Shown here: positions 4,240 through 46,690 of the stretch, piece after piece
Numbering within the stretch: position 1 is the first letter of the stretch
How the letters are laid out: every line of letters starts with the position of its first letter
Source: a bacterium
GTDB taxonomy: Bacteria; Eisenbacteria; RBG-16-71-46; CAIMUX01
NCBI GenBank assembly: GCA_030431975.1
Contig: JAUIHP010000017.1
Coordinates: 1-64,000 of the forward strand
Length of the DNA stretch: 64,000 nucleotides
Direction of reading: 5' to 3'
Position numbers and translations under genes: made by a program
The notes under the pieces: model-generated
What the model saw: only the letters and a program-made list of their open reading frames with translations
Databases searched by the model: none
What the model was told of the DNA's origin: nothing

Positions 4240-7200
4240 ATGAGAGCCATACAAACTGCCAAACATCTCCTATCGGCTGCTGCTGTCGGTGGGCTTTTCT
4301 TTGCCACAACAACAACTGCACTCGCGGACGCACCGCGACTCGGACCGAATGATCCGGACCCGACCGACCGTCCGCTCTTCGCGGCGGATCGCATCCTGAT
4401 CCAACTATCACCCAATGCCGCGCAGAACGCGGTGGTGCAAAACACCGCGGCGGGAGTTCGAACTTCCATCCCTAGCCTGGACGGACTTCTGACCTCCAGC
4501 AACGCCACCGCATTGGGGCTGACTCACATCAAAGCCCGCAATGAGTCCCTTGCGGCTTCGCTCGGATTGGACCGCTGGTACTCGGTTACGGTTCCGGAAG
4601 GGACGGACATCCCGGCCTGGATCGCCCAGTACAAAGCGGACCCGAACGTCGACGAAGCGACCCCGGACTACTACGCATACTCGACGGCAACGCCGAACGA
4701 TCCGACCTATTCGATTCAGTGGGGACACAACAACACCGGGCAGATGCTGGACTACTGCTGGGGTTGTGGTGGTCACGACAGCGGCAGTCCGGTCGGAACG
4801 CCGGGCTTCGACGCGGACGCGCAACTGGCCTGGGACAAGTCGCAGGGCTACGGCTCTTCGTCCGTGGTCATCGCGATTCTTGACAGCGGCGTGGATGCGG
4901 GTCACCCGGACCTCAACCAGGTCGCGGGCTATGACTACGGTGACAACGATTCGAACGCGGACGACAACAGCTCGCAGCCGGGTCACGGTACCGCTTGTGC
5001 GGGTGTCGCGGCAGCCATCTCGAACAACAACCTGGGCCCGGCCGGTATCGCCGGCGGGTGCAGCATCATGCCGCTCAAGGTTGCGGACAGCGGCGGCTCG
5101 CTCTTCTTCTCGTACATTCAAAACGGTCTCATCCATGCGGCAGACAACGGGGCCGACGTCGCAAACATGAGTTTCGGCGCCGCCATCTCGAGTGATCCGT
5201 CGACGGACAGTGCGCTGAGCTATGCCTACAACGCAGGCGTCACTCTGCTCGCCGCGACGGGCAACGAGAACGCGAGCACGATCAGCTACCCGGCGATTCA
5301 CTCGCAGGTCATCGCGGTCGGCGCCGCGTCTCCGTGCGGAGACCGCAAGCGCAGCTCCTCGCTGTCCAGCGAAGTCAATCCGGGCGTGAGCACGGACCCG
5401 AACGGCTACACCTGTGACGGCGAGCGTTGGTGGGGTTCCAACTACGGTTCGACCTCACAGGGCTCCGCTGCCGCCGTCGACTTCCTCGCTCCGACCATCC
5501 TTCCCACGACCGACATTCAGGGTTCGGGCGGATACAATTCCGGGGACTTCGACAACTGGTTCAATGGAACGTCCTGCGCGACACCGTACGCTGCGGGCGT
5601 TGCAGCTCTGATCATCTCGGCCAACCCGTCCTTCACGCCGGCGCAGGTTCGCGACGCGATCCGCAACGGTTGTGAAGATGTGCAGAACGTCGAGTCGGGT
5701 ACCGGCTGGGACCGTTACAGCGGCTACGGAATGATCAATGCGAACAACGCTCTTGGTGGCGGAGGCGGTGGCCCACAGGACTATGCATCGCTTCCGTACA
5801 CGACCGGCTTCGAGGGTGGACTCGACACCTACTGGGCAACGCAGAGCGACAACGGCTTCGGTCGCATCCAGACGACCAGCGCCAACGGTCCATTCGCGGG
5901 CAGCTCGCACCTGACGCTGGACTCGACGACCAGCGGAAACTTCGCGCTCAACGAAGCGAGGCTCCATCTCGACCTTTCCGGCGAGTCGCAGGTCGACCTC
6001 GACTTTCAGTGGAAGGAGTTCGGGGACGAGACCCACAGCCAGGACGGGATCTACTTCTCGGACAACGCGGGCGCCAGCTTCGTCAAGGTTCAGGACCTGA
6101 ACGGCGCGAGCTACACCAACAACACCTGGCAATCGTTCTCGCTCGACCTCGACGCACTGGCCGGGGCCAACGGTCTGTCGTTGTCGAGCAACTTCGTCAT
6201 CAAGTTCCAGCAGTACGACAACTATCCCATCGCAACCGACGGCTTCGCCTTCGACGAGATCTCCGTGACCTCGGGCGCACCGCCGGCGCCGACGGTAACG
6301 GTGACCGACCCGAACGGTGGAGAAACGCTGACCGCCGCCAGCAATTTCAACGTCACGTGGTCGACGACGGGAACAGTCGCCAACGTCTCCATCGAGTACT
6401 CGACCAACTCCGGCGCCAGCTGGACGACGGTCACGGGCTCAACGACCAACGACGGAACCTACACCTGGTCGGTCCCGAGCACGGCCACGACTCAGGGTCG
6501 GGTTCGCGTCGCCGACGCGTCCAACTCGTCGATCAACGACGTCAGCGACGCCGACTTTACGATCGACGTTCCCTCCGGCGGCGGGAACTACGCTTCGCTT
6601 CCCTACGCAACGGGGTTCGAAGGCGGCCTCGACAGCTACTGGTCGACACAAAGCGACAACAGCTTCGGCCGGATTCAGACCACATCGGCCAACACACCTC
6701 ATAGCGGATCGACGCACCTGACCATGGACTCCAACACCAACGGCAACTTCGCGCTCAACGAAGCATGGCTCGGACTCGACCTTGCCGGCGAGTCGCAGGT
6801 CGAACTGTCGTTCTGGTGGAAGGAGTTCGGAGACGAGACGCACACGCAGGACGGCGTCTACTTCTCGGACAACGGCGGTTCGAGCTTCGTCAAGGTCCAG
6901 GACCTGAACGGCGCGAGCTACACGAACAACACGTGGCAGTCGTTCGTCCTCGATCTCGACGCACTGGCCAGCTCCAACGGCTTGTCCCTGACCAGCACGT
7001 TCGTCGTCAAGTTCCAGCAGTACGACAACTACGCGATCACGACGGACGGTCACGCCATCGACGACATCTCCGTGACGGCCGGCAGTGGTGGAGGAGGCGG
7101 AGACTACGCCTCGCTTCCCTACTCGACCGGGTTTGAAGGTGGTCTCGACAACTACTGGAGCACGGATAGTGACAACTCGTTCGGCCGCGTGCAGACGGCG

Positions 7201-26348: not shown

Positions 26349-27338
26349 CTACTCCGTCCGTAGCGCATCGGGTGTATGCCCGGTCCACGAATGGAACGCG
26401 CGAGAAAACGAGCTCGGATCCTCGTAGCCGAGCAGGAACGATATCTCCGCTCCGCTCAAGTGCGTCGTGGTCAGGTAGTGGCGTCCCAGTTCTTCCCTTG
26501 TGCTGTCGAGAACGGTCTGGAACGTTGCGCCCTCGTGTTGCAGACGTCGTTGCAGCGTCCGACTGCTCGTCCCAAGTTCTTGGGCCACCGCACCGATCGA
26601 TGCATTACCGGAGGGAAGAAGCTCGAGCAGCGCAGACCGAACTCGATCCATCGTCGTGGCGCTTTCATCGAGTTCTGACAGTCGTCGCTTGAGCCCCGGT
26701 TCGAACGTGCTCCACATCTCCTCGTTCGCACTCAGGAACGGCCGCGTGGCGTCCTCTCGTTGGAAAACGAGAGTGGCTTGACGACCGGATTTCATCGAGA
26801 CACTGAAGAACTCTTCGTAGTCCGACCGCGGTTCGAGCGGAACCGGCGTCCGGACCTCGAGCGGCCGAATCGGCGTCCGCGTCGCCAGCCGCGCCAACTG
26901 GACGAAGAAGACCAGCTCGAACCCGATCAATGATGCCGGGGGGTGAGCGTGCGCATCCAGCCACTCCAGCTTGAGAGTGGTCTTTCTGCTCCCGACCCCG
27001 ACATGCAAGGCCATCGGACAGATGAGCCGCTTGTAGATGGACAGTCTCGACAAGGCAACGTTGAGGTCCGGACTGCAATAGGCTGCGAACACCGCCGGAT
27101 CGAAGGCGTCGACCGACAGCGCTTCGGCAATCCGTAGCGGCAGCACGGTGTCCCCCGCCTCTTCCTCCATCGCCTGCCACAAGTGGAAGTACTCTTCGGT
27201 ACTGAGGTCGGCGCGGTTGCGTGCGAAAAGGTCGCCGGGCAGTCCCGCCCGCCTGAGGATCACAAACTCCCGCAAACCGATATCGCGCATCAGCAGGCGC
27301 CAGCGCGGACTGACGGGGAACGACTTGCCGTTCGTCAA
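26349..27338 (-). CDS. AraC-family regulator (OruR-type N-terminal domain)
   Basis: The product is 329 aa. The N-terminal ligand-binding half (about 20-205) contains SVDAFDPAVFAAYCSPDLNV and IGFELVFFVQLAR, as in the Arabinose_bd domain found in OruR/ArgR-type AraC proteins. The C-terminal HTH_18 (about 220-328) has IGAVAQELGTSSRTLQRRLQ as the first helix-turn-helix and ISFLLGYEDPSSFSRAFHSW as the second. It is divergent from the SDR gene at 27785, 446 bases apart, a common layout for a regulator and its target. That link is inference. Confidence 0.9.
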   Translation of the reverse strand: MTNGKSFPVSPRWRLLMRDIGLREFVILRRAGLPGDLFARNRADLSTEEYFHLWQAMEEEAGDTVLPLRIAEALSVDAFDPAVFAAYCSPDLNVALSRLSIYKRLICPMALHVGVGSRKTTLKLEWLDAHAHPPASLIGFELVFFVQLARLATRTPIRPLEVRTPVPLEPRSDYEEFFSVSMKSGRQATLVFQREDATRPFLSANEEMWSTFEPGLKRRLSELDESATTMDRVRSALLELLPSGNASIGAVAQELGTSSRTLQRRLQHEGATFQTVLDSTREELGRHYLTTTHLSGAEISFLLGYEDPSSFSRAFHSWTGHTPDALRTE

Positions 27339-27784
27339 TGAGTTCTCCTTGCCCGGAAGCGTGGCCCCTTCCCAGTTTCTGGACGGGTTTCGGATGCGTC
27401 ACATGGTGCACATCGCTCAGGCCGCTGCGACGGTTCGGTCCCTGAGAGGGCTGACCGCACCTTGGAAACTCTACTCGGGCCAGCGAGAGGTTGGTTAGCG
27501 ATTCCCGCCATTGGTACAGCGGATCGCGCCAGCCCCGACCGTTGTGATTGGCGCACTCCGCCATGTGTTTGGCGGGATCTGCAGAGCCTCATCCTCGCTC
27601 CGGTCGTACTTTCCTATTGAGCTCGTTGCGTTCGGCTGTCCGGCGGCGGGTCCGGTGAGCTCGGCGTCAGCGGTGAGTTTCGCGGATTCGGCGGGTGCGG
27701 CGGGTACGGCGAGTTCGGCGGTCCGGTGGGTTTCGGCAGTTCGACGAGTTCGTCACGGCGAACCATTCATTGGAGGTCTGGACC
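27339..27784. other. Divergent intergenic region between AraC regulator and SDR
   Basis: 446 bases with no convincing gene. The part 27655-27745 is built of imperfect units (GGCGAGTTCGGC, GCGGGTACGGC, GTGAGCTCGGC) and looks like another decayed minisatellite. GGAGG lies eight bases before the SDR ATG. No clear palindromic operator was found by eye. Confidence 0.5.
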
Positions 27785-28600
27785 ATGAGTCAGACGGTTT
27801 TGATCACCGGTTGCAGCAGCGGCATCGGAAGAGCCACGGCACTTCACTTTCAGAAGGAGGGTTGGAACGTCGCTGCGACTGTCCGGTCCCCCGAGAAGGA
27901 GTCGGAACTATCCGCACTCGAGAACGTCCTGGTGACGAAGCTCGACGCCACGGACCACTCGACAGTCAAATCCGCCGTCAGCGCCACTCTGGACAAGTTT
28001 GGGGGCATCGACGTCGTGGTCAACAACGCCGGCTATGGTGCCTACGGTCTCCTCGAGGCCACGCCGATCGAGAAGATTCGGCGCCAGTTCGAGGTCAACG
28101 TCATTGGAGTGCTGGCGGTGACGCAAGCCGTCCTGCCCCACTTTCGCAGCCGCGGCGCGGGTACCTTCGTCAACATCTCCTCGATGGGAGGGAAGATTAC
28201 GTTCCCGTTGGGCACCCTCTACCACGGGTCCAAGTTCGCTGTGGAGGGAATGTCCGAGGCCCTCTCCCATGAGCTCACTTCGATCGGAGTTCGGATCAAA
28301 CTGATCGAGCCGGGAATCGTCCGCACGAACTTTGGATCGACGTCGCTTGATCTGAGCCTGGATCCGTCCCTTTCTGAGTACGCTCCATTCGTCGAGAAGA
28401 TCATGGCTGCCATGGAGCGGATGGGGAACATGGGCACGGACGCGTCCGCGATCGCGGAGGCTATCTTCGGCGCAGCGACGGATGGAACGGATCAGATTCG
28501 GTATCCTGTTGGGGATGACGCGGTCCAGATTCTGGAGGCGCGTAAGAGTCTGGAGGATAAGGAGTACATGGCCGCGATCCTCGCCCAGTTCGGCCTTTGA
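27785..28600 (+). CDS. Short-chain dehydrogenase/reductase
   Basis: The product is 271 aa from ATG at 27785 with GGAGG eight bases upstream (a longer frame reaches 27695 without one). Classical SDR features: cofactor motif TGCSSGIGRAT near residues 8-18, VVNNAGYGAYG, active-site Ser in NISSMGGK, and Tyr/Lys in YHGSKFAVEG. PGIVRTNF follows. The length and the TFPLGTLYHGSKFAVEG region fit classical SDRs that act on retinol/steroid-like substrates, but the substrate is unknown. It is divergent from an AraC regulator and about 370 bases ahead of the PadR operon. Confidence 0.93.
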   Translation: MSQTVLITGCSSGIGRATALHFQKEGWNVAATVRSPEKESELSALENVLVTKLDATDHSTVKSAVSATLDKFGGIDVVVNNAGYGAYGLLEATPIEKIRRQFEVNVIGVLAVTQAVLPHFRSRGAGTFVNISSMGGKITFPLGTLYHGSKFAVEGMSEALSHELTSIGVRIKLIEPGIVRTNFGSTSLDLSLDPSLSEYAPFVEKIMAAMERMGNMGTDASAIAEAIFGAATDGTDQIRYPVGDDAVQILEARKSLEDKEYMAAILAQFGL

Positions 28601-28943: not shown

Positions 28944-28967
28944 ATACTGAGTATGCATACTCAGTAT
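28944..28967. promoter_or_regulatory. Perfect 24-bp palindrome, likely PadR operator
   Basis: ATACTGAGTATG (28944-28955) is immediately followed by its exact complement CATACTCAGTAT (28956-28967). The palindrome ends one base before the padR ATG at 28969, so bound repressor would cover the start region. PadR-family proteins are winged-helix dimers that often repress their own operon through AT-rich palindromes. No Shine-Dalgarno is present between the palindrome and the ATG, so the transcript may be leaderless. Confidence 0.85.
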
Positions 28968-28968
28968 C

Positions 28969-29508
28969 ATGTCCATTCGAAACAGCCTACTCGCCATCCT
29001 CTCTGAAGAGCCGACCCACGGGTACGGCCTGAAGAACCGCTTTGAGAACAGTACCGCCGGGACTTGGCCGCTCAACGTCGGCCAGGTCTACTCCACGCTT
29101 CAACGCCTCGAACGTGACGGACTGGTCGAGCCCCTGTCTCCCGGAAGAGGTTCGGAGGACAAGGACCGGCAGTCCTGGCGTCTGACCGATCCCGGCCGGG
29201 GCGCACTTGCCCGTTGGTTCGCCGAGCCGATTCTGGACGACCCGCCACAACGCGACGAACTCACTCTGAAAGTCCTCCTCGCTGTCGCTGCCGAGCACGT
29301 CGACGTCCTCGACATTCTGCAGGCGCAACGGGCCACGACGATGGAGCGGCTTCAGCAGTACACCCAACGAAAGCGAATCGCGGACCCGGACGACGAGCTT
29401 TCCTGGGTCCTCCTGCTCGATGCCTTCATTCTCCGCGCCAAGGCGGAGATTCAGTGGCTGGATCTCTGCGAGGAAAGGCTCCGTCACCACAACACGAGGC
29501 CGTCGTGA
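28969..29508 (+). CDS. PadR-family transcriptional repressor
   Basis: The product is 179 aa. The N-terminal winged helix has the standard family opening SLLAILSEEPTHGYGLKNRF, then NVGQVYSTLQRLERDGLVEP (recognition helix and wing) and RQSWRLTDPGRGAL. The C-terminal half is the helical dimerisation region (LQQYTQRKRIADPDDELSW). It is first in an operon with an ABC ATPase and a permease-peptidase fusion, the common layout for autoregulated PadR/exporter systems. A perfect palindrome abuts its start codon. Its stop overlaps the next start by GTGA. Confidence 0.93.
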   Translation: MSIRNSLLAILSEEPTHGYGLKNRFENSTAGTWPLNVGQVYSTLQRLERDGLVEPLSPGRGSEDKDRQSWRLTDPGRGALARWFAEPILDDPPQRDELTLKVLLAVAAEHVDVLDILQAQRATTMERLQQYTQRKRIADPDDELSWVLLLDAFILRAKAEIQWLDLCEERLRHHNTRPS

Positions 29509-30224
29509 TTCCATTCCACGAACGGGACGCTGTACTCGAGTTCAAAGCGGCCGGCCGCACGCATGGCACCGGGGATCGCGTGGCCCGTGCGCTTGGTCCG
29601 ATTGACCTCCGTATCGACGAGTCGGAGTTCGTCGCCATCATGGGGCCTTCCGGCTCCGGCAAGTCGACGCTGCTCAACCTTGCCGGCGGACTCGACAAGC
29701 CGACCGACGGGAGCGTTTCGCTCGGCGGCCGTCCTCTTGACAACATCAACGCGCACGACCTCGCGACTCTGCGCCGGACCTACATCGGTTTCGTCTTCCA
29801 GGACCTGAACCTGCTCCCCGGCCTGACCGCGCTCGAGAACGTGACCCTTCCCCTCGAACTCAGCGGCGCTTCGAGTTCGAGGTGCAGACCGGAAGCTGAA
29901 GTCGCGCTGCAAGGCGTCGGCATGGCCGACAAAGCCCACCGATTCCCGGAAAACCTCTCCGGCGGCGAACAGCAACGTGTCGCCATCGCCCGCGCCGTCG
30001 TCGGTCCGCGGCAGCTCCTTCTCGCGGACGAACCGACAGGGGCCCTCGACACGGTCACAGGTGAACGCATCATGCGCCTGCTGCGAAAGCAATGTGAGTC
30101 CGGCCGCACCGTCGTCCTCGTGACGCACGATTCTTCCCACGCAGCGTGGGCCGATCGAGTGGTCTTTCTGCGAGACGGACGAATCGTCGACGAGACCCGT
30201 TCACCCGGGACGGTCGTGACGTGA
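29505..30224 (+). CDS. ABC transporter ATP-binding protein (LolD/MacB type)
   Basis: The product is 239 aa from GTG at 29505 (overlap GTGA with padR; the longer frame upstream is padR antisense-like sequence). Complete ATPase motif set: Walker A MGPSGSGKST, Q-loop FVFQDLNLLPG, signature LSGGEQQRVAIARA, Walker B LLLADEPTGALD and switch His in VLVTHDSSHA. The family works with FtsX-type permeases in mechanotransmission: extracting lipoproteins, exporting peptides or driving periplasmic enzymes, rather than passing substrates through a channel. The permease starts inside its stop codon. Confidence 0.95.
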   Translation: MIPFHERDAVLEFKAAGRTHGTGDRVARALGPIDLRIDESEFVAIMGPSGSGKSTLLNLAGGLDKPTDGSVSLGGRPLDNINAHDLATLRRTYIGFVFQDLNLLPGLTALENVTLPLELSGASSSRCRPEAEVALQGVGMADKAHRFPENLSGGEQQRVAIARAVVGPRQLLLADEPTGALDTVTGERIMRLLRKQCESGRTVVLVTHDSSHAAWADRVVFLRDGRIVDETRSPGTVVT

Positions 30225-33200
30225 GCGGCAGCAAAAGTTCGTCCGCTTCCCGACGTTGGATCTTGGCACTCCCCGCGCTTTTGCGGCTCGAATGGCGAGA
30301 CCTTCGCAGACACCGCGGCAGGTCTGCGCTTCTCCTGCTTCTGATCGCAGTACCGGTCGCAGCAGTCGTTGGCGGCGCAGCCATCGCCAAGATGATTGAG
30401 CCCACGCCAACGGAGCGCGCGCAGAAAGCAATGGGAGCCGCCGCGCTCCTTGTCGAAGTCCCGTCCGATCCCGGAAACTACGACCGCATCCTCGACGCCA
30501 TTCCGGAGGAAGCCGAACGCGCACGGTTCTTCGTCAGCCAGGAAACCGTGCAGGCGGCGGGCCGCAAACTGCGTAGCAAGATGATCGCGATCGATCCGCT
30601 TCATTTGGAGAGTCCGAGAGCAAGCTCGCGAGTGCGGCCGAACCTGCAAGCTCGGCCGAACCCGCGAACTCGACCGAACCTGCAAGCTGATCCGAATCTG
30701 CAAACTCATCCGCAACCGATCGGTTCGGGACTCGTGCACATACTCGAAGGCCGTGCTCCGCGGAATCCGTCGGAGGTCGCTCTCTCGCCGACCTTACTGG
30801 ACGGGCTCGGCTGCGCCCTCGGTGACTCCGTCACTCTTTCCTACGGAACAAAGCGGATCATCACGGGCATCGTTGTGGACTCCGAGGACCAGAACGCGCC
30901 GATTGTCCTGAGAACACCCGCTGCCGTCGAGTATCCCGCCAAGGAGTATCTCCTCATCGGGCGAGCAGACCCTGAGGACTCGGCGTTCAATGCAACCGAG
31001 CTGGCTCTCAAGCTGGAAAGCGACTCCATCCGAGTCTCCCGAAGGACTTCCTTTCGTGCGGACCCGACGCTCTCTCAACTCATCGTACTTCTCGGCACCA
31101 TTGGGTTCGCCGAAGCCGGACTGGTCATCGCCTCCGCCTTCTTCATCAGCTTTCAGAGACGGCGCTACGAAATCGGGTTGCTCGGTGCGACCGGCGCGTC
31201 ACCGCGCGACATCCTACGATCCTTGATCGTGTCCACGCTTGCCATGGCATTTGTCGCCTCTCTGATCGGCGCATTGATCGGGATCGCGATCGCAGCACTC
31301 GTCCATCCTCAACTCGACAATTGGAACGGACGGATCAACGGCCCGTTTGAGGTCTCGTTCGTCGGAGTTGTCGCCGGAGTCATCCTTGGTGTCGTCACCG
31401 CCGGACTCGCCGCATGGATTCCGGCACGAGCAGCCACCACCATCCCCGTACGTGAAGCTTTGCGTGGACGGAGACCTCCGACCTCGAGTCACCGCGCAAC
31501 TTTTGTCATTGGAGTCGTGGCCGCCGGGACAGGACTCGGTCTTCTCGCGCTTGCTTCGCGAACTCCGGCGGAGCCCGCAGTCTCCGGAACGATGATCCTA
31601 TTCGGTTCGCTGTTCGGACTTCTCGGCTTCGGACTGATCAGCCCGTGGCTTCTGGGAGTCCTCGCGAAAGTCGCCGCCCCGCTGCCGCTGCCGTGGAGGT
31701 TGGCACTTCGGGACGCGGGCCGCTTTCGAACCCGCAACGGCCCCGTCGTGACGGCGATCCTTGCGGGAATGGCGATGAGCGTGACCATGGGGATTCTGGT
31801 CGCGAGCCTGCAGTCCGGGCTCGATGCGCTTCCGGCGTCCTATCGAACCGACCAGATCTTCGTCGAAGGTCCCAACGCAGAGAATGTCGCGCATACCCTG
31901 GCTTCCGAGTTCGCAGTCATGGCCTGGACCCCGCTTCACGCAACATACGCAGGTGCCGAACCCGTACGCGTCGTTCCGCCGACCGGGATCGCGCCCACGC
32001 GCGAGGACTGGGTTGCGTGCGGTAGCGAGGAGCTCTTGAGAACAATGGGAGCGGAATCGGCCATCTCCGCGTTTCGCGCGGGCGCCGTTGTTGCGCTCAT
32101 CAATGACAGATCCAAGACAATAGGAGCTGCAAGGGCACAGAAGAACAGCTCAAATCCCGTGCCATCCTCGGAGGCCGGGCAGATAGATTCAGTGACCGAG
32201 CCGGCGTTCATCACTTTGCAGTCGTGGATCGGCAAGAGGAACGTTGCGTCGTTACCGGTTCACTTCGTCCGAACCGATGAGAACGTGCGATCCCCGCGCT
32301 ATCTGCTCTCGTCGGGCGCTCTCTCGTCGGATGCACTCTCTTCGTACGGACTCCACTCCGGCCCGCCTCTGCGATCGACCACGACACCGTTCCTGTTGCG
32401 TTTTGACAGTGTCGTCGACGAGGCGTTGCTCGAACGGACCAGCGACCGGGCGGCTGAACTCGGTCAGGCCTCGATTTCGGCAGCGCTTCTTGAAGTTCGA
32501 CCGCTCCGCAACTCCTACAACTTCGTGTTGCTTCTCTGTCTGGCGACCGGACTCATCATTCTTTTCGTCGCTACCGCGCTTTCTTCCGCCGAGTCGGCCA
32601 ACGATCACCACTTGCTGCACACGATCGGAGGAAGCCCGACCTTGCTAAGGACTCTCTCGGCCGCTCGCGCGGGGTATCTCGCACTGCTCGGTTGCCTCCT
32701 CGCGGTTCCAGCCGGAATCTATCCCGCACTCGGACTGCTCCAGGTCTCGGACCTGCCAATGCCCTTGACGTTTCCGTGGTCGGACATTCTCCTCGTCGTA
32801 TTCGGACTGCCGTGTGCTGCGTTCGTGCTTGCATGGATGTCGTCCGGCTCTTGGCCGCGAATGTCCCGTTGGAAGCTCGGGGTGAACGCGGCCACGGTTT
32901 GCCTGCTGGCCGTCGTAGGCGTTGGCTTCGCGCCACGAGTCACCGCCGCCGGCTTCGAGCCGTACTTCGAGCCGTACTTCGGGCGTACTCCCGGCGGACG
33001 CACGATCGAAGGCCAACTCGGACGCTTCAACGTTCCCGAGAACCGGCAAGATGAGAAGAGTCCTACGATCGAGCTCGCTTTCGTCCGGTACGAGACGGCT
33101 CATCCCAATCCTCTTCCGCCAGTCTTCTTTCTCGCCGGCGGGCCGGGAGCTTCGGGCGTCGAGTTCGCATCCGTGGTCGCGTCCCATCCGCAGATTCGAC

Positions 33201-34435
33201 TTCTCGAACATCGCGACGTCATTGGTCTCGACCAGCGGGGAACCGGCCTCAGCGACCCTCACCTTTGCGGAGAGTCCGGGCCGACGTTCACGCACGAGAT
33301 CCCGCTCGACGAGCCCGTCACGCGGGCGACCTTCATCGAGGCGTTCGAAGTTGCAGCCGAAGCATGTCGAGACCACTGGGTCTCCGAGGGCGTGGATCTG
33401 GCTGCGTACAACACGCGCGAGAGTGTGCAGGATCTCGAAGACTTGAGGTTGCATCTCGGCCTCGATGAGATCGCGTTGTGGGGCGCGAGCTATGGCTCTC
33501 ACCTGGGTCTTGCCTACTTACGAGAGCACGCGTCTCACGTCGAGAGAGCGATCATTCTGAATGTCGAAGGCCCGGATCACACATGGAAGCTACCGGCAGA
33601 AACTCAGCGTCAGTTGGAAGTCCTGTCCGAGCAGATCGAAACGGCGCCGGCTTGGAAAGATTCACTTCCGGACGTTCTCGCGACGGTCAAGGAACTGCTC
33701 CAGCAGCTGGAGCAGAAACCTGTCAGAGTCCCTTTCGTCACCGACTCTTTCGCACCCAGCTCCGGCACACCTAGTTCCGAGACACCCGATTCCGACAAGC
33801 CCGACTCCGACGCACCCAGCTCCGGCACACCCGATGTCGATACACTTGATGTCGCTGTCGGACCTTTCGACCTTCAGGTGTACCTCGCCCGCTCCTTGTC
33901 CGAGTTCCGGACGAGGCTCCCAGTCCCGGCAGCACTCCTTCGGATGAAACGCGGAGACTTCTCTGACCTCGCCGAGACCGCCTTCGATAACCATCGGCCG
34001 TCATCGACCGCGATGCCGTTGGCGATGGACTGTGCCTCCGGTGGCAGCCCGTCCCGGATCGCACAACTCAATCGCGAACGCATGAACCCAACCAACCTTC
34101 TGGGCGACGCCATCCTCGCGCCGCACTATCCGGAGTCGTGCTCTGACTTCCCAACGAAAGACATCGGGACATGGCTGCGCACGCCTGTTGCCTGCACCGT
34201 GCCGATCCTGTTCGTCAGCGGCGAATTGGATGTTCGCACGCCCCCCTCCAACGTCGATGACCTCATGAGTCAGTTCGCCAACGCCAGTCACATCCGCGTC
34301 AGCCATTGCGGGCACGGCTCGAGAGAACTGATGTCTCCTGAGTATCGAGCCATCGTCCAGGCTTTCCTTCGCGGCGAGTCGGTTTCCAGCACGCAAGTCC
34401 AGCTTCCACCGCTAAGATTCCAGGGGTTGCCATAG
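30221..34435 (+). CDS. FtsX/MacB-type ABC permease fused to an S33 (tripeptidyl-aminopeptidase-like) hydrolase
   Basis: One uninterrupted frame of 1404 aa from GTG 30221 (GTGA overlap). Residues 1-60: first membrane helix. About 65-280: extracytoplasmic region including a repeat (RPNLQAR, RPNLQAD). About 282-420: FtsX core with RRYEIGLLGATGASPRDILR and three helices. About 425-560: further helices. About 760-885: second FtsX core (HHLLHTIGGSPTLLRTLSAA). Residues about 890-915 form a hydrophobic helix that looks like a signal anchor. About 920-1404: alpha/beta hydrolase with oxyanion loop LAGGPGASG, DQRGTGLSDP, nucleophile in GASYGSH (near 1090), Asp in SGELDVRTPP and His in SHCGHGS, all typical of S33 peptidases. 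By topology the peptidase should face the periplasm. An Asp/Ser/Pro repeat lies in its lid region. Confidence 0.92.
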   Translation: MSGSKSSSASRRWILALPALLRLEWRDLRRHRGRSALLLLLIAVPVAAVVGGAAIAKMIEPTPTERAQKAMGAAALLVEVPSDPGNYDRILDAIPEEAERARFFVSQETVQAAGRKLRSKMIAIDPLHLESPRASSRVRPNLQARPNPRTRPNLQADPNLQTHPQPIGSGLVHILEGRAPRNPSEVALSPTLLDGLGCALGDSVTLSYGTKRIITGIVVDSEDQNAPIVLRTPAAVEYPAKEYLLIGRADPEDSAFNATELALKLESDSIRVSRRTSFRADPTLSQLIVLLGTIGFAEAGLVIASAFFISFQRRRYEIGLLGATGASPRDILRSLIVSTLAMAFVASLIGALIGIAIAALVHPQLDNWNGRINGPFEVSFVGVVAGVILGVVTAGLAAWIPARAATTIPVREALRGRRPPTSSHRATFVIGVVAAGTGLGLLALASRTPAEPAVSGTMILFGSLFGLLGFGLISPWLLGVLAKVAAPLPLPWRLALRDAGRFRTRNGPVVTAILAGMAMSVTMGILVASLQSGLDALPASYRTDQIFVEGPNAENVAHTLASEFAVMAWTPLHATYAGAEPVRVVPPTGIAPTREDWVACGSEELLRTMGAESAISAFRAGAVVALINDRSKTIGAARAQKNSSNPVPSSEAGQIDSVTEPAFITLQSWIGKRNVASLPVHFVRTDENVRSPRYLLSSGALSSDALSSYGLHSGPPLRSTTTPFLLRFDSVVDEALLERTSDRAAELGQASISAALLEVRPLRNSYNFVLLLCLATGLIILFVATALSSAESANDHHLLHTIGGSPTLLRTLSAARAGYLALLGCLLAVPAGIYPALGLLQVSDLPMPLTFPWSDILLVVFGLPCAAFVLAWMSSGSWPRMSRWKLGVNAATVCLLAVVGVGFAPRVTAAGFEPYFEPYFGRTPGGRTIEGQLGRFNVPENRQDEKSPTIELAFVRYETAHPNPLPPVFFLAGGPGASGVEFASVVASHPQIRLLEHRDVIGLDQRGTGLSDPHLCGESGPTFTHEIPLDEPVTRATFIEAFEVAAEACRDHWVSEGVDLAAYNTRESVQDLEDLRLHLGLDEIALWGASYGSHLGLAYLREHASHVERAIILNVEGPDHTWKLPAETQRQLEVLSEQIETAPAWKDSLPDVLATVKELLQQLEQKPVRVPFVTDSFAPSSGTPSSETPDSDKPDSDAPSSGTPDVDTLDVAVGPFDLQVYLARSLSEFRTRLPVPAALLRMKRGDFSDLAETAFDNHRPSSTAMPLAMDCASGGSPSRIAQLNRERMNPTNLLGDAILAPHYPESCSDFPTKDIGTWLRTPVACTVPILFVSGELDVRTPPSNVDDLMSQFANASHIRVSHCGHGSRELMSPEYRAIVQAFLRGESVSSTQVQLPPLRFQGLP
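30610..30722 (+). repeat. In-frame repeat in the permease extracytoplasmic loop
   Basis: About five imperfect units of 15-24 bases (CGAACCTGCAAGCTC and variants) encode RPNLQA-like units. The tract sits between conserved permease segments and keeps the frame. Confidence 0.8.
33750..33855 (+). repeat. In-frame 15-bp repeat in the S33 lid region
   Basis: About seven units like ACACCCGATTCCGAC encode APSSGTPSSETPDSDKP-type sequence, inserted between the core hydrolase strands and the lid helix. Two units of 30 bases (GCACCCAGCTCCGGCACACC) are identical. Confidence 0.85.
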
Positions 34436-34592
34436 CCCGGATCGCTTTGGCCGCCTCGCTCATCCTCGCGAGGTCTGTTTGTAAACGGAGCCGGGCGCAC
34501 AGCGTAGACAACACCATTTGATGTCGTCGCGGTCTACCGACCAAACCTCCGTCTTGAGACCTTCGGGCGAAGGCTGTCGAAGCGAGGTCCAC

Positions 34593-46430: not shown

Positions 46431-46690
46431 TCCATACCCGCTGCGGGTGTGGACGCTGCGTAAGTACGGGATCCGTGGACTTATCGCTCTTCCATACCCG
46501 CTGCGGGTGTCGGCGCCGCATAAGTACGGAATCCGTGGACTTATCGCACTTCCATACCCGCTGCGGGTGTCGGCGCTGCATAAGTACGGAATCCGTGGAC
46601 TTATCGCACTTCCGCACCCGCTGCGGGTGTCGGCGCTGCATAAGTACGAGATTCGTGGAGTTATCGCACTTCCGCACCCGCTGCGGGTAT
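46431..46690. repeat. Exact 60-bp tandem array with nested palindromes
   Basis: Four full units and a partial fifth begin at 46431, 46491, 46551, 46611 and 46671, with period exactly 60. Units 2 and 3 differ at one base. Each holds the palindrome ACCCGCTGCGGGT and, 14-19 bases on, ATAAGT-ACGGA-A-TCCGT-GG-ACTTAT, a nested inverted repeat (perfect in units 2 and 3). It lies in the 529-base gap between divergent genes (second subtilisin and DUF2255-like). Because 60 is a multiple of three, several frames stay open with a 20-residue period on both strands. I do not think any is a gene. Confidence 0.95.

Follow-up and report, generated by a model that had tools for sequence, protein, structure and literature searches.

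An in-frame fusion of a YbbP-like ABC permease and an alpha/beta hydrolase in a PadR-headed operon

Is a long reading frame that joins an ABC permease to a complete alpha/beta hydrolase a genuine gene and, if so, what might the two parts accomplish together? This question is raised by a locus in the window, i.e., the entire 64,000-nucleotide stretch of bacterial DNA analysed here. The original prediction for this locus, made from the sequence alone, held that the frame is uninterrupted, that it follows padR and ABC ATPase genes in an operon, and that it encodes a single machine in which the ATPase perhaps gates a periplasmic S33 peptidase.

The fused gene and its operon

The locus has the following features (positions are those of the window):

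28944..28967, no strand: putative PadR operator, a perfect 24-bp palindrome (ATACTGAGTATG/CATACTCAGTAT) adjoining the padR start
28969..29508, + strand: padR, PadR-family regulator with Vir_act_alpha_C, 179 aa (PF03551 and PF10400 above cut-offs)
29505..30224, + strand: ABC ATPase of the MacB/FtsE/LolD/YbbA kind, 239 aa (PF00005, E 4.7e-33)
30221..34435, + strand: whole fused gene, 1404 codons from GTG start to stop
30221..32845, + strand: YbbP-like Type VII permease, residues 1-875 (hydropathy, AF2, Foldseek)
32861..32947, + strand: signal-peptide-like segment, residues 881-909 (MSRWKLGVNAATVCLLAVVGVGFAPRVTA), with possible cleavage after VTA
32948..34432, + strand: alpha/beta hydrolase, predicted periplasmic, residues 910-1404 (PF00561, PF08386)
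34453..34482, + strand: weak stem-loop resembling a terminator, downstream of the operon, which does not exceed the expectation from shuffling

The 1404-codon frame is indeed open from 30221 to 34435, and position-specific GC holds a single frame across 32.9 kb with zero frame switches. Pfam models for FtsX (two stretches), Abhydrolase_1 and the TAP-like C-terminal domain all match this one protein. A frameshift or assembly artefact as the source of the fusion is ruled out by the codon-position GC together with three independent fused relatives; the permease–hydrolase fusion is real and not a sequencing accident. We found no description of such a fusion in the papers searched, so that the claim of its being undescribed stands uncontradicted by what is a weak test. 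The gene also carries four in-frame short tandem repeats with units of 12-18 bp (30635-30717, 32306-32353, 32953-32989 and 33751-33834). These encode low-complexity inserts; two examples, at residues 135-161 and about 1179-1194, have a pLDDT below 50. Relatives do not have the large inserts, and many similar arrays occur elsewhere in the window, e.g., at 1625-1736 and 46431-46688.

The gene order in the window is padR, ATPase, fusion, with GTGA overlaps on both flanks of the ATPase gene, just as had been proposed: padR/ATPase at 29505-29508 and ATPase/fused gene at 30221-30224. The best NCBIfam matches of the ATPase are MacB, FtsE, YbbA and LolD, and the matching models include the peptide-exporting darobactin DarD and lactococcin-972 types.

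A single base separates the 24-bp palindrome (ATACTGAGTATGCATACTCAGTAT) from the padR ATG, and aligned equivalents of it are found upstream of padR in 15 operons. The 764 kb of fetched sequence contain 13 separate instances of its core, GTATGCATAC, each in a promoter of one of these padR genes. In the 6.2-Mb genome of the window the palindrome before padR is the sole site, even with up to 3 mismatches allowed. Genome-wide scans recovered exactly one copy, always upstream of the relevant padR, in 7 of 10 genomes; the three without it are two with no padR found at the locus (G025 and G041) and one in which the contig is cut (G002). As expected of an autoregulated PadR operon, a palindromic candidate operator adjoins padR and is conserved among relatives, and this PadR is very probably a local, single-target regulator of the padR–ATPase–permease–hydrolase operon. 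Antibiotic-responsive PadR repressors are known, as in the case of LftR and aurantimycin (PMC6624303). A single-target PadR offers a route to the natural compound of the system, namely whatever lifts the repression.

The permease, the hydrolase and their junction

The point of reference for the permease is the Escherichia coli YbbAP-TesA system, a 2:1:1 complex of an ATPase, the permease YbbP and the periplasmic hydrolase TesA, in which YbbP has 10 helices with periplasmic domains between helices 1-2 and 7-8 (PMC12646458). TesA is described therein as receiving a membrane-extracted substrate, with little ATP stimulation. For the window the original prediction had proposed two FtsX-type cores. 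Two Pfam FtsX stretches are indeed present, and the detail differs in that the permease has 10 hydrophobic helices (37-55, 287-305, 343-361, 380-398, 427-445, 464-482, 509-527, 769-787, 822-840 and 856-874), one large soluble domain between the first two and another between the seventh and eighth, and helices 5-6 as the link, i.e., the two-periplasmic-domain layout of YbbP. In Foldseek searches against solved structures its AlphaFold2 model (pLDDT 79.9, pTM 0.71) recovered YbbP first (9ge7/9ge6, E 1.9e-21/7.2e-21), ten orders of magnitude ahead of the second match, BceB (E 3.9e-11); the TM-scores to YbbP are moderate (0.46-0.58). Sequence profiles match YtrF, MacB, LolCDE and YbbP. The FtsX/MacB-type core (PF02687, two stretches) and the MacB/LolD-kind ATPase place the system in the Type VII ABC superfamily.

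The catalytic elements foreseen for the hydrolase are all in place, namely GGPG (973-976), GASYGS (S1090), SGELD (D1337) and SHCGHG (H1365). The Ser1090/Asp1337/His1365 triad is invariant in 24 relatives, as is GGPG except for its last G, which is shared by 90% or more. Foldseek matched the hydrolase model (AF2, pLDDT 90.3, pTM 0.89) to TnmK1, Hip1 and TnmK2, and sequence profiles placed Hip1/CaeA first among solved structures. With a Ser-Asp-His triad and a GGPG oxyanion motif in an alpha/beta fold, the domain belongs with the TAP-like alpha/beta hydrolases of the Hip1/TnmK group. Its proposed identity as an S33 peptidase finds no support in the S33 model, PF12146, which scores 16.8 bits against a cut-off of 27. 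Proline iminopeptidase models match weakly, the nearest solved relatives include deposits labeled carboxylesterase, protease and hydrolase, and PHROGs yielded only a weak esterase match. The peptidase label is too specific and is not secured, an esterase or another hydrolase being conceivable as well. GroEL2 cleavage has been reported for Hip1, which shares this fold group (PMC4022732); this, along with the peptide-exporting ATPases among the matched models, would fit an exporter with built-in processing, wherein the hydrolase trims a peptide or lipoprotein exported by the operon. However, genes for a precursor peptide, an adaptor protein or a TolC-like protein are absent from the four-gene operon, and the window and the relatives have no neighbor in common, all of which makes such an exporter very improbable.

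The segment between the two parts was first taken for a signal-anchor-like helix; it reads instead as a signal peptide. After its tenth helix the permease has its end in the cytoplasm, and the hydrophobic stretch that comes next would therefore take the hydrolase through the membrane. All four fused junctions display an uncharged core of 13-16 residues and, ahead of the mature enzyme, an A/V-x-A site, like stand-alone signal peptides, and the linker to the first conserved hydrolase strand, at 6-12 residues, is no longer than that of secreted homologues. Given these short cores, the A/V-x-A sites and a linker as short as in secreted homologues, cutting by signal peptidase seems somewhat more likely than a lasting anchor. 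If the junction is cleaved, the effect of the fusion would be that permease and enzyme are always made 1:1, as they are found in the YbbAP-TesA complex. ATG 881 of the window could serve as an internal start, though a weak one without a Shine-Dalgarno-like sequence. One fused relative (L038) has zero start codons between permease helix 10 and the mature hydrolase, and hence its hydrolase can only be made in fused form.

The same junctions bear on the notion of one lasting chain, in which an eleventh helix keeps the hydrolase at the membrane and the ATPase cycle gates the enzyme's activity, as FtsEX does with murein hydrolases. This would accord with the continuous frame in four genomes, with the L038 gene lacking an internal start, with the window segment 886-904, which passes the 19-residue helix threshold, and with the activation of periplasmic hydrolases by Type VII transporters via FtsEX-EnvC (PMC7668044, PMC12505981). 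We nevertheless think it unlikely: all four fusions have the short core and the A/V-x-A site, the 6-12-residue linker is too short for the top of the periplasmic domains, where TesA is seated in YbbAP-TesA (PMC12646458), and the unfused operons manage without a tether. The FtsEX-type gating originally envisaged is likewise not borne out by the closest structure, YbbP, with its little-stimulated partner TesA (PMC12646458). Thus, the mechanism would be better framed on YbbAP-TesA than on FtsEX. A single-polypeptide transporter-enzyme, in which the hydrolase stays covalently attached to the YbbP-like permease, receives its substrate from it and forms with it one mechanochemical machine that destroys membrane-inserted compounds, is a tentative possibility.

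Fused and separate forms among relatives

The same domain order, sought across genomes, was found fused at the frame level in four: the window and three further genomes of the same phylum, of which one is from the same family (L033/G002), one from the same order (L038/G006) and one from the same class (L034/G041). Each of these three frames is truncated by a contig end inside the permease. The permease and hydrolase are therefore not separate in all relatives; had they been, this would have spoken against the proposed machine. Separate genes are found in 13 operons of two other lineages, with a signal-peptide-bearing hydrolase directly downstream of the permease. One is from a GN15 genome (L025), in which the permease stop overlaps the GTG start of the hydrolase (GTGA); the other twelve, from another phylum, have the order padR, ATPase, permease, hydrolase, with the signal peptide on the hydrolase. 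PadR is found in 12 of the 13, the sequence of L025 starting inside the permease. On this comparison of gene neighborhoods, the four-gene operon is the widespread form, from which the fusion derives as a local variant. In the hydrolase tree the fused forms do not group, and a single fused clade is not rejected (p-AU 0.29).

Certain other long frames proved not to be fusions: those in L040, L041, L042, L044 and L045 are out-of-frame open extensions or frames with stops, their hydrolases being alone or separate, and an apparent 1542-aa frame in G296 is likewise an out-of-frame extension or a frame holding stops. The permeases of L093 and L124 lack the second periplasmic domain (helices 7-8) and in that of L122 it is shortened, with padR, the ATPase and the hydrolase kept. 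At L094:2844-4253, directly after an intact ATPase gene, lies a permease without its N-terminal half, reflecting decay, deletion or mis-assembly. Among the stand-alone hydrolase relatives, those from Pelomonas (L028:7463-10049 and L031:7314-8350) are directly followed by a gene for an ECF-type-like sigma factor and then by one for a small membrane-protein-like product, so that this enzyme family also occurs in another genomic context.

In the window itself, divergent AraC-type regulator and short-chain dehydrogenase genes lie upstream of padR (26349-28597). In E. coli, tesA is in one operon with the dehydrogenase gene ybbO. The SDR and AraC neighbors were ruled out as members of the present system, having zero homologues at the loci of the relatives; indeed, none of the window neighbors of the operon is common to those loci.

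Taken together, fusion in 4 genomes, adjacency in 13 operons and the PadR operator support the permease and the hydrolase belonging to one functional unit. This much of the proposed machine stands, whereas the peptidase nature of the enzyme and its persistence as a single chain are less certain. Gene fusion is, moreover, direct evidence of permease–hydrolase coupling. One could alternatively posit a co-regulated pair without physical coupling, i.e., a pump for the export or flux-sensing of a toxic amphiphile alongside a secreted enzyme that independently degrades the same compound, the fusion being a tolerated stop loss between overlapping genes that is undone by signal peptidase. The 13 operons with separately secreted hydrolases, the many related hydrolases that stand alone beside other genes, the PadR control and a junction that is still signal-peptide-like are all in keeping with it. 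We consider it quite unlikely, however, as distant lineages have kept the gene pair and the permease is of the same kind as YbbP, which partners a hydrolase. Further, the one padR-bearing operon without a complete hydrolase gene (L119) retains, after the permease (4800-5000), a signal peptide and both termini of a hydrolase without its middle, a deletion relic or mis-assembly; given these remains, it can be inferred to have once had a hydrolase.

A YbbAP-TesA-like proposal and the known systems

We propose, as on balance the probable reading, that the locus encodes a YbbAP-TesA-like ABC transporter–hydrolase machine with an unrelated enzyme, under a dedicated PadR. Two ATPase subunits would sit beneath one 10-helix permease, the ATP-driven motion of which might lift an amphiphile (a lipid, a lipopeptide or a membrane-inserting peptide antibiotic) from the outer leaflet of the inner membrane for cleavage by a periplasmic alpha/beta hydrolase of the Hip1/CaeA–TnmK group. 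Repression of the operon by PadR would act through its single dedicated palindrome and presumably end once the compound is present. In the phylum of the window, the hydrolase's own signal peptide would form the in-frame link to the permease and take the hydrolase to the periplasm in a fixed 1:1 ratio to the permease. There the hydrolase would either stay tethered by an eleventh helix or, with slightly greater probability, be freed by signal peptidase. The nearest fold to the permease being YbbP, whose partner is a periplasmic hydrolase, counts for this proposal. Against it count the only moderate TM-scores to YbbP, a permease operon with neither hydrolase nor padR (L037), the many stand-alone hydrolases, and the retention of the hydrolase where the second periplasmic domain is lost (L093, L124) or partly lost (L122). 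From the last of these it follows that docking of the hydrolase on both domains, as seen with TesA, would not be general.

Among the known systems, the ADOP permeases and the acidobacterial PadR (TIGR03434, TIGR03433) likewise combine a duplicated FtsX-type permease with a PadR, but these model matches are weak, with scores far under the cut-offs (30 of 622 and 39.5 of 101.8 bits), and the models are without a hydrolase. Hip1/CaeA (Rv2224c) and TnmK1/TnmK2 are the nearest solved hydrolase structures by profile and fold and have the same triad arrangement; however, the identity is about 15-18%, and they are stand-alone, with no link to an ABC permease found in the literature consulted. The BceAB(S) bacitracin-resistance transporters share the 10-helix permease and are the second-best fold match, but BceB, with a single large periplasmic domain, partners a histidine kinase and no hydrolase. 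Like FtsEX-EnvC and FtsEX-RipC, the present system would be a Type VII ABC complex acting on a hydrolase outside the membrane, but FtsX has four helices, and the enzymes there are peptidoglycan hydrolases encoded by separate genes.

The closest parallel is with E. coli YbbAP-TesA (PDB 9ge6, 9ge7), the best fold match of the permease, which shares with the window system a duplicated 10-helix Type VII permease with two periplasmic domains, a separate ATPase gene and one periplasmic serine hydrolase partner (predicted in our case). Published in 2025 as a new kind of Type VII ABC system, it has as yet neither a known physiological substrate nor a measured role for ATP (PMC12646458). The differences are as follows: sequence identity is about 15% in the fold alignment; the enzyme here is an alpha/beta hydrolase (PF00561/PF08386, Foldseek) and not, like TesA, a GDSL enzyme; its gene is part of the permease gene or the next one in the operon, while tesA of E. 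coli is a neighbor on the opposite strand; and a PadR and its putative operator are present. Relative to YbbAP-TesA, the window system is new in its different enzyme and its fused form, which suggests that permeases of the YbbP type are more generally teamed with periplasmic hydrolases, different enzymes having been recruited to the role.
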